Source of the DNA: Thermodesulfovibrionia bacterium
Lineage (GTDB): Bacteria; Nitrospirota; Thermodesulfovibrionia; UBA6902
Assembly (NCBI GenBank): GCA_020057065.1
Contig: JAGVGM010000349.1
Location: 1-64,000, forward strand
Length of the DNA: 64,000 nt
Reading direction: 5' to 3'
Part shown: positions 6,999 through 53,355 of the stretch, piece after piece
Position numbering within the stretch: the first letter of the stretch is position 1
How the letters are laid out: each line of letters opens with the position of its first letter
Program-made: the position numbers and the translations under genes
Notes under the pieces: generated by a model
Databases searched by the model: none
What the model saw: only the letters and a program-made list of their open reading frames with translations
What the model was told of the DNA's origin: nothing

Positions 6999-7075
6999 AA
7001 AGACAGTTACGAGTTGCGAGTTGCGGGAAAGATGCAGGATGTAACAAGGTTGAAGCCGTAGCGATGAAGCGCGGA
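6999..7075 (+). repeat. 3'-spacer composite with heptamers and a tail scar
   Basis: GTTACGAGTTGCGAGTTGCGGG then CAGGATGTAACAAGGTTGAAGCCGTAG. Confidence 0.8.
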
Positions 7076-17830: not shown

Positions 17831-17921
17831 GAATTTATAAAAGACAGTTGCGGGTTGCGGGTTACGAGTTACGGGAAAAGATGCAGGATGCAAGAGTTTG
17901 GCAAGAAAATACTCAGATATT

Positions 17922-36569: not shown

Positions 36570-36865
36570 GAATTCATAAAAGACAGTTGCGAGTTACGAG
36601 TTGCGGGTTGCGGGAAAAGACGCCAGATCAAGATGTGACGGGGTTTAAGCCGTATGATTTTCTTATTGACAACTGTTGAAGATAGCTGGTTTACTAATGA
36701 AGCAGAAATAAAGAGACTTGAGATCGGTCTGGACAAAACAAAAAAAGAAATTGCAAAGTTTGAGGAAAAGTATTCCATGAATATGTCGCTAACTGATTAT
36801 CTCCGGTCTTTCTCTATTGGCACATGAGTTTTATAAACTTAAATCTTGCAAGTGAGGTGTAAGGC

Positions 36866-42357: not shown

Positions 42358-42527
42358 GAATTCATAAAAGACAGTTGCGAGTTACGAGTTGCGAGTTGCG
42401 GGAAAAGATGCAGGATGAGCCATAGCGATAAAGCGCGGAAGTCGGTAAGCGCGGAAGCGGGAAAGACTTAAACTGACCAATGCTTTTTTTATTTTGCTGA
42501 TTGCTGATAGCTGAACGCTGAGAGCTA
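42358..42527 (+). repeat. 3'-spacer composite with heptamers
   Basis: GAATTCATAAAAGACAGTTGCGAGTTACGAGTTGCGAGTTGCGGG...GAAAGACTTAAACTGACCAATGC...GCTGATTGCTGATAGCTGAACGCTGAGAGCT. Confidence 0.85.
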
Positions 42528-49002: not shown

Positions 49003-49005
49003 TTG

Positions 49006-52000
49006 ATGACAGAAAAGGGAAGAGGAACAGAATTGAGGAGATTCGTAGGACTTGACGCAGGCTCTGTAAGTGTAAAACTTGCTGTTCTTGATGTTAGGGG
49101 AAATATTCTTGAAACGAAGTATGTCAGACACAAAGGCAATCCCCTTCCTGTCGCGTATGAACTTCTAAAAAATGTAACGCGTGTAGGGGCGTTTCGCGAA
49201 ACGCCCCTACTTTCCATCACCGGCTCAGCCGGCAAGGTCATTGCCGGAGCATTCGGCATAAAGCCTGTAAATGAAGTGGTTGCTCTCAGCTATTCAACTA
49301 AAAAGCTTTATCCTGAGGTCAGGACCGCTATAGAGATGGGAGGCGAGGATTCAAAGCTTATCCTTCTTGAAAACGGTGCGATAAAGGAATTTTCGATGAA
49401 CTCTGCATGCGCTGCAGGAACCGGTTCCTTTATTGACCAGCAGGCTGAGAGGCTTTTTCTCAGTATCGAAGAGTTCAGTGAACTTTCACTCAGATCAGAG
49501 AGCCCTCCGCGAATAGCCGGCAGGTGCAGTGTTTTTGCAAAATCGGATATGATCCATCTTCAGCAGATCGCAACACCTGTTGAGGATATTGTTGCGGGAC
49601 TTTGTTTTGCGGTCGCAAGGAACTTCAAGGGGAGTATCTGCAAAAATATGGAGCTGCCTGAGCCTATAAGTTTTCAGGGAGGTGTTGCAGCTAACAAAGG
49701 CGTTGTAAGGGCTTTCAGGGAAATATTCAGTACAGAGAACATCATAATCCCCGAACATTTTGCGCTAATGCCTGCAATAGGCGCTGTTTTGAAAGATATG
49801 GAGGCGGGGATTGAAAATGATTTTGATATCGAAAGACTGAAATTGTTTATTGAGACCCTGAAAGACGAGGAACAAGGGCATAAACCGCTGAGGGCAGTCA
49901 GCAGTCAGCGGTCAGCGGTCAGCAATGTAGGGGCGGGTTTGAAACCCGCCCCTACGTACTCTAAAAACGCATACCTCGGCATTGACATCGGCTCTATCAG
50001 CACGAATCTTGCTGTCATTGATGAAGAAGGAAGGCTGCTTGCAAAGAGATATCTTATGACTGCAGGGCGGCCTATCGAGGCGGTAAAGAAAGGCCTTGAT
50101 GAGATAGGCAGTGAGGTTGGAGATAAGGTACATATTTGCGGGGTTGGGACCACGGGTTCCGGAAGATATATGATAGCGGATTTTGTCGGGGCAGACATTG
50201 TCAAAAATGAGATCACAGCCCAGGCCCGTGCTGCCGTAGAAATTGACCCTCAGGTTGATACTATCTTTGAGATCGGCGGGCAGGATTCTAAATATATCTC
50301 CATAAGGGACGGCATCATTATTGATTTTGAGATGAACAAGGCTTGTGCCGCAGGCACGGGGTCTTTTATTGAGGAGCAGGCTGAGAAACTTGATATATCG
50401 GTAAAAAATGAATTTTCAGAAATTGCATTTCGATCTGAGAAACCCTGCACGCTCGGAGAAAGATGCACTGTCTTTATGGAGAACTCTCTTCTGTCAAAAC
50501 AGCAGAGGGGGGCTGCAAAAGAAGACCTTACGGCAGGACTTGCCTATTCCATAGTCCAGAACTATATAAACCGTGTTGTTGGCGACAGGGCTATCGGCAA
50601 GAGGATATTTTTCCAGGGCGGAGTGGCCTTTAATAAAGCCGTTGTTGCAGCCTTCGAGAATTATCTTAACAGAGAGATCATTGTACCCCCTGATCATGAT
50701 GTCACAGGAGCTATAGGAATGGCGAGAATAGCTAAGAAGCACATGGAAGATCAGCGTTCAGCAATCAGCGTTCAGCAATCAGCAGTAGAGGCAATTCATG
50801 AATTGCCCCTACATGAATCCCCCATTACATCTTTCAAAGGTTTTGATCTTTCAAAAAGAGACTACGAAATAAAGTCATTTCCCTGTAAGGGTTGTGATAA
50901 TTTATGCGAGATAAACAGGGTTCAGGTGGAAGGGGAAAAAGAACCTCTTTACTACGGAAGCAGATGCGAAAAGTATGACATCAAGCGGAAGAAAAATACC
51001 TCCTCGGGCATGCCCGATCTTTTTTCAGAAAGAGAAGAACTGCTTACAAAAACACATAATGAATATTGTAACAAGTTACGAGTTGCGAGTTACGAGTCAA
51101 AGAATAACAACCCATCACCCATTACCCATCACCCGTTAAGGATAAAAATCGGTATCCCGAGGATATTCTTCTTTCATGACTTCCTTCCTTTCTGGAGCAC
51201 GCTTCTGTGGGAGCTTGGTTTTGATGTAGAGCTCTCGGCAAATACCAACAGGCAGATAATAAACAAGGGCGTTGAGAGTATCCTTGCGGAAAGCTGTTTC
51301 CCGCATAAGGTTGCGCATGGACACATAAGGGACCTTATGGAAAAGAACGTTGACGCTGTTTTTCTCCCGAGTTTTATAAATTTCAACTTTGAAAGTGAAG
51401 CGGCCAGCAGTTTTGCCTGTCCTTACGCCCAGACCATGCCGTATATTGCCGGTATAGCTTTTGGTGAGGTCAGATTTATTAAACCGATAATAAACCTTGA
51501 ATATGGCAGGCAAAATCTTGTGAACGAAATCCACAGATCGCTTAAACCATTTCATATAACAAAGGCCTCAATTAAAAAGGCGCTCGAAAAGGCAGAAAAG
51601 GCTCAAAAGGAATTCACATCTGCGGTCAGGAAACGCGGAGCAGAGGTCCTTGCGAATATAAAAGAAAGAACGATCGTGATCATAGGGCGTGCATATAACG
51701 CATTTGACTCCGGCATAAATCTCGAGATACCGAAAAAACTGGCATTCCTCGGAGTATTCTCTATCCCTATGGATTATCTTCCTCTGGAAACTGTTGATAT
51801 CTCCAGTAAATGGACGAATATGTACTGGAGGTCAGGGCAAAATATTTTGAGAGCCGCTGAATTGATAAGGGATGATCCAAAACTGTTTGCACTCTATATA
51901 GGGAATTTTTCATGCGGCCCTGATTCCTTTATACACCACTTTTTTGATGAAACAATGTCAAATAAGCCATTTTTACATATAGAAATAGATGAGCACAGCG

Positions 52001-53355
52001 CTGACGCCGGAGTAATAACAAGATGTGAGGCATTCCTTGACAGCATAGAAGGACAGTGCAGAAGTGCAGAAGTGCAAAAGTGCAAAAGTGCAGAAACAAC
52101 TTCATCACTTCCGCGCTTCCGCGCTTCCGCGCTTAATAAGCGTACCGTTTATATACCGAGGATGTCGGATCATGCATTCGGTCTTGCTGCAGCTTTTGAA
52201 GCGTGTGGTATCCATGCTGAGGTCATGGAGGCGCCTGATATAGATACGGTCGAGATCGGAAGACAGTATGTATCAGGCAAAGAATGTTATCCTTGCGCGA
52301 TCACAACAGGAGATATGGTGAAAAAGGCAATGTCGGATGATTTTGATCCTGACAGGTCTGCATTCTTTATGCCGTCAGGGGCCGGTCCCTGCCGTTTCGG
52401 ACAATATAATGTTTTTCACAGGATGGTCCTTGATGAAGCCGGATTTCCGGAGGTACCGATATTTTCGCCAAATCAGGATGAATCACTATATACGGTCCTC
52501 GGCATGGTTGGAAAGGAGTTTGCAAAACAGGCCTGGAAAGGGATAATTGCGATAGATCTGCTTATAAAGTGTCTTCATGAGACAAGGCCTTATGAGATCA
52601 ACAAGGGGGAGACGGACTGCCTTTATCAGGAATATCTCGTAAAAATCAGTAAGGCATTGAAAAGCAGCAACGGAGCCATGACGAAACTTCTCGATAATAT
52701 TCTTCGCGATTTTTCTTTAATAAGTAAGACGGAAGAAAAGAGACCCCTTGTAGGGATTATCGGAGAAATATTTGTGAGGCATAATTCCTTTGCAAATGAG
52801 AACATCATAAGAAAGATCGAAGCGCTTGGCGGCGAGGTCTGGCTGGCTCCTGTTGAAGAATGGATATATTATTTGAATTATACCGCCCTGCGAAAGACTG
52901 TAATAGGCCTTCGCAATTCTTTCACACAGAAGCTTGCTGAGGATCTTTTGAGGACGGTCCTCACACGATATGTTCAGAAGAGAACAGAGCATAAGTATTC
53001 CAAAACTTTTACGGGTTTCCTGCATACACTTAAAGAACCTTCTACAAACGAGATACTGAAGAATGCATCTCCGTATCTTCATGATTCATTTGAAGGGGAG
53101 GCTGTCCTGAGCATGGGCAAGGCAGTGGATTACGTCAAACGCGGGGCCTCAGGCATAATCAGCGCCATGCCCTTCGGTTGCATGCCCGGCACAATAGTTA
53201 GCGCCCTTTTGAAAGGGCTTAAGCAGAATAAAAACGTACCATGTCTGAGCGTTGCATACGATGGGGTCGAGACCACATGTTCGGGGATCCAGCTTGAGGC
53301 CTTTATGCATCAGGCCAATGAGTGCATGAAGAATAACGAGAGGAAGATCAATTAG
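49006..53355 (+). CDS. Acyl-CoA dehydratase activase-related protein: two BcrAD/BadFG ATPase domains plus DUF2229-like region
   Basis: FVGLDAGSVSVKLAVLD, MGGEDSKLILLENGAIKEFSMNSACAAGTGSFIDQQAERL; second unit LGIDIGSISTNLAVID, GGQDSKYISIRDGIIIDFEMNKACAAGTGSFIEEQAEKL. Confidence 0.92.
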   Translation: MTEKGRGTELRRFVGLDAGSVSVKLAVLDVRGNILETKYVRHKGNPLPVAYELLKNVTRVGAFRETPLLSITGSAGKVIAGAFGIKPVNEVVALSYSTKKLYPEVRTAIEMGGEDSKLILLENGAIKEFSMNSACAAGTGSFIDQQAERLFLSIEEFSELSLRSESPPRIAGRCSVFAKSDMIHLQQIATPVEDIVAGLCFAVARNFKGSICKNMELPEPISFQGGVAANKGVVRAFREIFSTENIIIPEHFALMPAIGAVLKDMEAGIENDFDIERLKLFIETLKDEEQGHKPLRAVSSQRSAVSNVGAGLKPAPTYSKNAYLGIDIGSISTNLAVIDEEGRLLAKRYLMTAGRPIEAVKKGLDEIGSEVGDKVHICGVGTTGSGRYMIADFVGADIVKNEITAQARAAVEIDPQVDTIFEIGGQDSKYISIRDGIIIDFEMNKACAAGTGSFIEEQAEKLDISVKNEFSEIAFRSEKPCTLGERCTVFMENSLLSKQQRGAAKEDLTAGLAYSIVQNYINRVVGDRAIGKRIFFQGGVAFNKAVVAAFENYLNREIIVPPDHDVTGAIGMARIAKKHMEDQRSAISVQQSAVEAIHELPLHESPITSFKGFDLSKRDYEIKSFPCKGCDNLCEINRVQVEGEKEPLYYGSRCEKYDIKRKKNTSSGMPDLFSEREELLTKTHNEYCNKLRVASYESKNNNPSPITHHPLRIKIGIPRIFFFHDFLPFWSTLLWELGFDVELSANTNRQIINKGVESILAESCFPHKVAHGHIRDLMEKNVDAVFLPSFINFNFESEAASSFACPYAQTMPYIAGIAFGEVRFIKPIINLEYGRQNLVNEIHRSLKPFHITKASIKKALEKAEKAQKEFTSAVRKRGAEVLANIKERTIVIIGRAYNAFDSGINLEIPKKLAFLGVFSIPMDYLPLETVDISSKWTNMYWRSGQNILRAAELIRDDPKLFALYIGNFSCGPDSFIHHFFDETMSNKPFLHIEIDEHSADAGVITRCEAFLDSIEGQCRSAEVQKCKSAETTSSLPRFRASALNKRTVYIPRMSDHAFGLAAAFEACGIHAEVMEAPDIDTVEIGRQYVSGKECYPCAITTGDMVKKAMSDDFDPDRSAFFMPSGAGPCRFGQYNVFHRMVLDEAGFPEVPIFSPNQDESLYTVLGMVGKEFAKQAWKGIIAIDLLIKCLHETRPYEINKGETDCLYQEYLVKISKALKSSNGAMTKLLDNILRDFSLISKTEEKRPLVGIIGEIFVRHNSFANENIIRKIEALGGEVWLAPVEEWIYYLNYTALRKTVIGLRNSFTQKLAEDLLRTVLTRYVQKRTEHKYSKTFTGFLHTLKEPSTNEILKNASPYLHDSFEGEAVLSMGKAVDYVKRGASGIISAMPFGCMPGTIVSALLKGLKQNKNVPCLSVAYDGVETTCSGIQLEAFMHQANECMKNNERKIN
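49183..49210. repeat. In-frame perfect 28-bp palindrome inside the activase CDS
   Basis: GTAGGGGCGTTTCGCGAAACGCCCCTAC. Confidence 0.95.
49893..49955. repeat. In-frame 7-bp-period array plus palindrome
   Basis: (GCAGTCA/GCGGTCA)n followed by GTAGGGGCGGGTTTGAAACCCGCCCCTAC. Confidence 0.95.
50751..50812. repeat. In-frame CAGCGTT/CAGCAAT periodic array plus palindrome
   Basis: TCAGCGTTCAGCAATCAGCGTTCAGCAATCAGCA then GTAGAGGCAATTCATGAATTGCCCCTAC. Confidence 0.95.
51074..51138. repeat. In-frame heptamer arrays
   Basis: GTTACGA GTTGCGA GTTACGA and CCCATCA CCCATTA CCCATCA CCCGTTA. Confidence 0.9.
52054..52140. repeat. In-frame AGTGCA(G/A)A and CTTCCGCG arrays
   Basis: CAGTGCAGAAGTGCAGAAGTGCAAAAGTGCAAAAGTGCAG...CTTCCGCGCTTCCGCGCTTCCGCGCTT. 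Confidence 0.9.

Follow-up and report, generated by a model that had tools for sequence, protein, structure and literature searches.

Our comparison of one gene across uncultured Nitrospirota shows that repeats of the intergenic type entered the same five loops of a CoA-enzyme activase many separate times without breaking the gene. The gene lies in a 64,000-nt stretch of DNA from a Thermodesulfovibrionia bacterium, referred to here as the window. Repeat traffic throughout the genome, filtered by what the protein tolerates, is the probable explanation. On this reading, mobile or slippage-prone DNA becomes new protein linkers at predictable places, and the activase linkers represent a replicated natural experiment, with many independent arrivals or losses at five shared sites in dozens of species.

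Five repeat segments in the activase gene

The double-headed activase is composed of two BcrAD/BadFG ATPase domains (residues ~15–268 and 325–575), DUF2229 (residues 715–925) and a C-terminal HGD-D-like part. It matches PF01869 twice and PF09989 in Pfam as well as CoA_E_activ in NCBIfam, and its fold is that of the activases 1HUX, 4EHT and 9GAI. With two ASKHA ATPase domains and DUF2229, the protein belongs to the CoA-enzyme activases (BcrAD/BadFG, DUF2229). Its relatives in a protein search derive for the most part from metagenome genomes of Nitrospirota (Thermodesulfovibrionia). The host genome (G000) is a 4.16-Mb assembly of 377 contigs with ~6% contamination.

The original prediction described five segments of intergenic-type repeats inside this gene, which is borne out by our analysis (Table 1). 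The reading frame is uninterrupted over positions 49003–53355, the arrays and palindromes are located where they had been placed, and all of the low-complexity peptides that had been quoted are found in the translation. The palindrome of segment 1 is indeed perfect; that of segment 3 has a single mismatched pair. The domain placement agrees with segments 2–5 being situated at domain joins and segment 1 inside ATPase 1, where it occupies the loop joining helix 1 to the next strand. At the threshold used, shuffled sequence contains no 6–10-mer arrays.

The presence of five repeats in one gene had been called remarkable, and within its genome the gene is extreme. In a 675-kb sample of G000, which comprises 440 genes of ≥150 aa, seven repeat features are scored in the activase and two at most in every other gene (Poisson P = 7 × 10−9 per gene; 3 × 10−6 corrected for 440 genes). 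The same gene has five features in a sample of the congener G004 and four in G005, where it is cut by the end of the sampled region; other genes in these samples again have two at most. What does not stand is the notion of five events in one gene, since the sites are recurrent in half of 86 orthologues.

Table 1. Repeat segments of the activase gene and related features (window positions, unless a locus is named)
Feature	Position	Strand	Remarks
Double-headed CoA-enzyme activase ORF	49003–53355	+	1450 codons; hosts all five repeat segments
Segment 1, 28-nt GTAG...CTAC palindrome (double-foot REP)	49183–49210	.	Perfect, 14+14 nt; encodes VGAFRETPLL
Segment 2, heptamer array GCAGTCA/GCGGTCA	49894–49924	+	Between ATPase 1 and ATPase 2
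Segment 2, 29-nt palindrome	49927–49955	.	Perfect, 14+1+14; encodes VGAGLKPAPT
Segment 3, 7/14-mer array ATCAGCGTTCAGCA	50750–50784	+	After ATPase 2
Segment 3, 28-nt palindrome	50785–50812	.	One mismatched pair (GTAGAGGC/GCCCCTAC); encodes VEAIHELPL
Segment 4, left heptamer array AGTTACG/AGTTGCG	51074–51097	+	Immediately before DUF2229
Segment 4, right array ACCCATC/ACCCATT	51110–51138	+	Weak inverted partner of left array, 4/7
Segment 5, left octamer array AGTGCARA	52055–52095	+	After DUF2229
Segment 5, right octamer array CTTCCGCG	52108–52134	+	Inverted partner of left array, 6/8 matches
Intergenic AGTTGCG/AGTTACG array	36585–36614	+	Same unit as segment 4
Further AGTTGCG/AGTTACG copies	7005–7025, 17847–17873, 42373–42400
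DapF-like gene	L150 14259–15134; L255 13086–14024		Different heptamer arrays, same protein site
TilS-like gene	L150 16462–17916; L255 15390–16838		Different heptamer arrays, same protein site
Acyl-CoA synthetase-like gene	L072, L074, L084		Different heptamer arrays, same protein site

The same five linkers across the class

We compared 86 full-length orthologues from across the class. Every one of them has an intact reading frame, and 43 carry arrays. The five linkers account for 10.4% of the residues and hold 164 of the 173 arrays (binomial P ~10−147, with arrays treated as independent); the remaining nine lie at residue 671, at residue 888 or at the C-terminus. Likewise, in an alignment with 29 relatives, the five segments fall in five variable linkers. 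Array density is 294/Mb in activase genes, 39/Mb in other genes (odds ratio 7.4) and 110/Mb in intergenic DNA. On a quick gene tree of conserved columns only, the least number of presence/absence changes at linkers 1–5 is 8, 14, 16, 14 and 10, respectively, counts in which gain and loss are indistinguishable. Decayed arrays are scored as array-free at the threshold used, which probably applies to L068.

The segments had also been proposed to be clean insertions. At linkers 1 and 3, the repeats are added, since these linkers are short in relatives without arrays: the median length is 13 residues without and 42 residues with arrays for segment 1, and 10 and 32 residues, respectively, for segment 3. 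A near-clean insertion of 111 nt in linker 3 separates the sister species L063 and L083. At linkers 2 and 5, array-free relatives have a non-repeat stretch of similar length (e.g., EFEKRHSVSYYIHKPETSGKVN; SSRKDISVSNPEKPLPSIMKKGTNNK), and the repeats thus replace sequence. In most relatives beyond the genus, linker 2 consists of a non-repeat EFxKRHxVSYYIHKPE... and linker 5 of another such stretch, SSRKDIxV.... Segments 1 and 3 are therefore net additions, and the proposal fails for segments 2 and 5, where orthologues have non-repeat residues at homologous positions, an observation that the original prediction itself took to count against insertion.

Arrays differ between species, even close relatives, and are alike within one genome. 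In the genus and in distant families, the same linkers hold other repeats, such as SQESEVRSQ, PPLPPFTKGGQGGI and NSKLLTLNS. Orthologous proteins can consequently have wholly different linkers, and aligning these residue by residue as though they were homologous would be misleading. A third repeat family, CCCCC...AAGGGGG, is present in linkers 1, 3 and 4 of L021, L061 and L081, where it is read as PPLPPFTKGGQGGI and similar peptides.

The activase core is under strong purifying selection and the linkers much less so. Core dN/dS is 0.03–0.14 in nine pairs; linker dN/dS is 0.24–0.65 in eight computable pairs, with uncertain linker alignments. In the AlphaFold model, confidence falls below 50 at window residues 301–317, 599–603, 699–711 and 1019–1042, inside linkers 2, 3, 4 and 5 (model numbering shifted by +11 or +679), and linker 1 is a helix-strand loop. 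As a replicated experiment, the activase linkers directly map the protein loops that tolerate new sequence, and they offer a way to ask how non-coding repeats turn coding.

Palindromes and the REP-associated transposase

The palindrome GTAGGGGC-N10-16-GCCCCTAC occurs in 70 copies in the 4.16 Mb of G000, all with the GT[AG]G 5′ end and C[TC]AC 3′ end of a double-foot REP; the reversed control occurs in none. We examined 45 copies: 24 lie between genes, 16 within ORFs and 5 at gene edges, and most of those within ORFs encode VGA...PL or VGAG.KPAPT in frame. Identical copies of the segment 2 palindrome stand on either side of a Y1 transposase gene (G000:C346), which carries a third copy in frame. 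Many related transposase genes are built likewise around other palindrome cores, each core being matched between the flanks and the interior. The C346 transposase has a Y---NP motif (EYIINNP), and its score with NCBIfam NF047646 is 69.7 bits (cut-off, 80). Judged from the palindrome ends and from the flanking and in-frame copies, the window palindromes are GTAG double-foot REPs and the transposase is probably of the self-inserted TnpAREP subclass 2.4 type.

In the transposase of L155/L173 (G000:C346), the in-frame REP reads GAGFKPAPT and is located after PNHLHGII and before EYIINNP, that is, between the HuH and Y motifs. The transposases of L174–L177, L179, L180, L201 and others contain a similar in-frame REP. 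Together with L182, L186 and L194, these genes carry the type of their flanking palindrome in frame at the same protein position, and the cores differ from gene to gene. We found no paper with GAGFKPAPT as a literature term.

Double-foot REPs of TnpAREP (RAYT) subclass 2.4, including a self-inserted transposase gene, have been described (PMC6006769). The elements found here share with that subclass the GTAG...CTAC palindrome ends, the many genomic copies and the location of palindromes on either side of a Y1 transposase gene with HuH and Y---NP motifs. They differ in belonging to Nitrospirota, in having three copies in one metabolic gene and in that two of these adjoin heptamer arrays. A self-carried flanking palindrome is thus known for subclass 2.4, if striking in this class, and we set aside our initial candidate of an in-frame REP inside the transposase gene as something new, since it is already described (PMC6006769). 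Intragenic GTAG/CGTC REPs have been surveyed as well (PMC3733652); that survey mentions genes with two insertions and different REPs at about one site in recB of X. campestris and X. oryzae. Similar to the present case, these REPs and Rickettsia palindromic elements lie in essential genes, keep the frame and are presumed to sit in linkers. Unlike the intragenic REPs of PMC3733652, the present case involves five loaded linkers in one gene, mostly tandem arrays, and dozens of species. The earlier comparison with palindromic elements that enter ORFs was apt; the elements themselves are not of the Rickettsia type but GTAG double-foot REPs tied to a REP-associated transposase. The palindromic part of our finding is of a known kind, given that REPs in genes, including the gene of their own transposase, have been published before, and the heptamer and octamer arrays are the newer part.

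It is probable that REP-associated tyrosine transposases copy the palindromes; GTAGGGGCGGGTTTGAAACCCGCCCCTAC would be a candidate single-stranded sequence for cleavage by an enzyme of the C346 type. The segment 1 palindrome differs from its counterparts in the orthologues of G008 and G002 by paired changes only, and its core versions in G000 and G002 are each present once among the copies listed in those genomes. Both observations hint at template-switch correction. The palindrome (49183–49210; L007 1651–1678; L008 1657–1684) is perfectly self-complementary in three species. As a general palindrome rule, paired-only evolution is no more than a lead: segment 3 shows unpaired changes, and orthologous palindromes are too few.

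Array origin, filtering and alternative explanations

Arrays of period 7 and period 8 fill spacers and occur in genes too. Neighbouring arrays within one linker have the same period in 40 of 46 pairs. They are often reverse complements, with ≥5/7 matches in 24 of 41 heptamer pairs (~9/38 when shuffled) and ≥6/8 in all seven octamer pairs. Scoring was by local alignment, since many inverted partners of intergenic arrays escaped a strict unit-consensus test. At p ≤ 0.05, an inverted partner is detected for 31% of the arrays in genes and for 53% of those between genes; direct partners hardly rise above background.

Genic arrays are filtered by strand and frame. A stop is held by 15% of their units on the coding strand and 61% on the other strand, compared with 51% per strand in intergenic arrays, and the net length of linker indels between close relatives is always divisible by three, one example being 21 nt (three heptamers). 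The site rule extends to other array-bearing genes, where 18 of 21 orthologous pairs share the array site (3.9 expected), some of these pairs belonging to one gene family and hence not all being independent. The genes concerned are DapF-like, TilS-like, acyl-CoA synthetase-like and others, names assigned from sequence only; the heptamer arrays at a shared site differ from species to species.

Small palindromic elements in Nostoc are said, in work by Elhai from 2008, to lie beside or within heptamer arrays, mainly in intergenic DNA. For these small dispersed repeats, we know of no report of recurrent enzyme linkers. Like Borg tandem repeats (PMC9879509), the arrays described here are genic DNA repeats that make new, disordered and fast-evolving protein with independent origins. 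Every unit in Borg ORFs has a length that is a multiple of three, and the repeats there are perfect and direct, whereas ours have periods of 7 and 8 nt, are imperfect and often in inverted pairs, and are chromosomal and recurrent at the same sites. Contrary to the Borg unit-of-three rule, 7- and 8-nt repeats can therefore persist in ORFs if they are stop-free on the coding strand. The plentiful intergenic heptamer arrays recall the TAACTGA repeats of Beggiatoaceae and cyanobacteria (PMC4679880). In Beggiatoaceae, however, the repeat is one fixed unit, mostly upstream of start codons and rarely in ORFs, whereas in our genomes the unit changes from one genome to the next and arrays are found at fixed sites inside ORFs.

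Arrays could in principle be born entirely in place, native purine-rich linker codons being the seed and replication slippage the sole process, with nothing copied in. The linker 4 heptamer array of L055/L056 suggests such a birth rather than an insertion, as it shows no net length change relative to array-free relatives and resembles native AACGGTAA codons; an earlier survey, cited in PMC4679880, is also reported to have found heptamers to be the commonest class of repeat in most genomes. As an account of all arrays, pure birth in place is nevertheless rather unlikely. When two linkers of one gene are compared, their units are alike in 24.8% of cases, about threefold the expectation (permutation mean 8.4%; maximum in 500 permutations 16.3%); orthologous linkers of other species are alike in 8.7%, no more than unrelated linkers (8.0%). 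Tandem arrays of the segment 4 unit AGTTRCG have 12 matches in G000 and none in four congeners and one genome of the same family; the unit is thus private to G000 among the six genomes searched, yet present at several loci. The segment 4 copy shares AACAAGTTACGAGTTGCGAGTTACG with the spacer before a pilin-like gene (named by its N-terminal sequence alone), and the two copies also agree in an adjoining AACA and in how the variant units follow one another. Moreover, the 111-nt insertion separates sister species, and slippage cannot make the palindromes. In our reading, some arrays were copied within the genome and others were born in place.

Selection for longer, charged, disordered interdomain linkers, with repeats as the raw material, would fit the top repeat count of the activase among sampled genes of three genomes, its recurrence across the class and a linker dN/dS below 1. 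Such adaptive tuning is improbable, because half of the orthologues lack detected arrays and have mostly shorter linkers but are otherwise intact, peptide content varies freely between species, and unrelated enzymes obey the same site rule. Units of 7 or 8 nt are not divisible by three, so that their gain or loss could shift the frame and act as a switch for the activase; phase variation of Haemophilus HMW1A is driven by heptanucleotide repeats (PMC8262952). We set this contingency-locus model aside as very improbable: the frame is open in every full-length orthologue, with no shift with unit number and no OFF variants among the 86 consensus sequences, linker indels between near relatives have net lengths divisible by three, and a gene has several arrays, each short and imperfect. 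The location of four of the five segments at domain joins and the existence of single-domain activases (PDB 1HUX, 4EHT) could indicate a fusion of once separate genes whose former spacers survive as repeats. Fused array-free orthologues are spread over the tree with short or non-repeat linkers, which already contradicts this idea; since segment 1 also sits inside a domain and the arrays of close relatives differ, we give it hardly any credence and have set it aside. As for an assembly or binning artefact, the fragmented assembly, its contamination and the ending of some contigs at palindromes might raise the suspicion, but many independently assembled genomes have repeats in the same linkers and the ORF is under purifying selection. 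Assembly error, which the original prediction had named as a concern, is thus excluded as a general cause, and the chance of an artefact is practically negligible.

The explanation we favour, genome-wide repeat traffic with a filter at the protein level, would operate as follows. Two kinds of spacer DNA, the GTAG double-foot REPs and the 7- or 8-nt tandem arrays (often inverted pairs), would keep moving and changing, the arrays growing and changing by slippage or template switching and being copied among loci of one genome. Transposition and slippage are here read from consensus metagenome assemblies. Repeat copies would land or arise in genes as well as in spacers, and those breaking a reading frame or a folded domain would be lost. 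Survivors would be those without a stop on the coding strand whose net length is a multiple of three and which lie in a flexible loop. Having five such tolerant loops, the activase would gain, swap and lose repeat segments again and again, and its linkers would now be largely built of spacer DNA. These loops would also explain its lead over other long multi-domain proteins, and the repeat peptides are presumably near-neutral disordered linkers. A more far-reaching version is possible, if short of probable: the inverted 7/8-mer arrays could be a mobile or copied family of their own that overwrites fixed tolerant loops in many enzymes class-wide, with spacer and linker DNA forming one exchanging pool.

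The AGTGCARA unit of segment 5 also recurs at several other places in G000. In the window, the spacers at 7005, 17847, 36585 and 42373 lie behind several large ORFs and consist of near-identical 30-nt leaders followed by AGTTGCG arrays; because they share both leader and array, these spacers look duplicated along with their genes.
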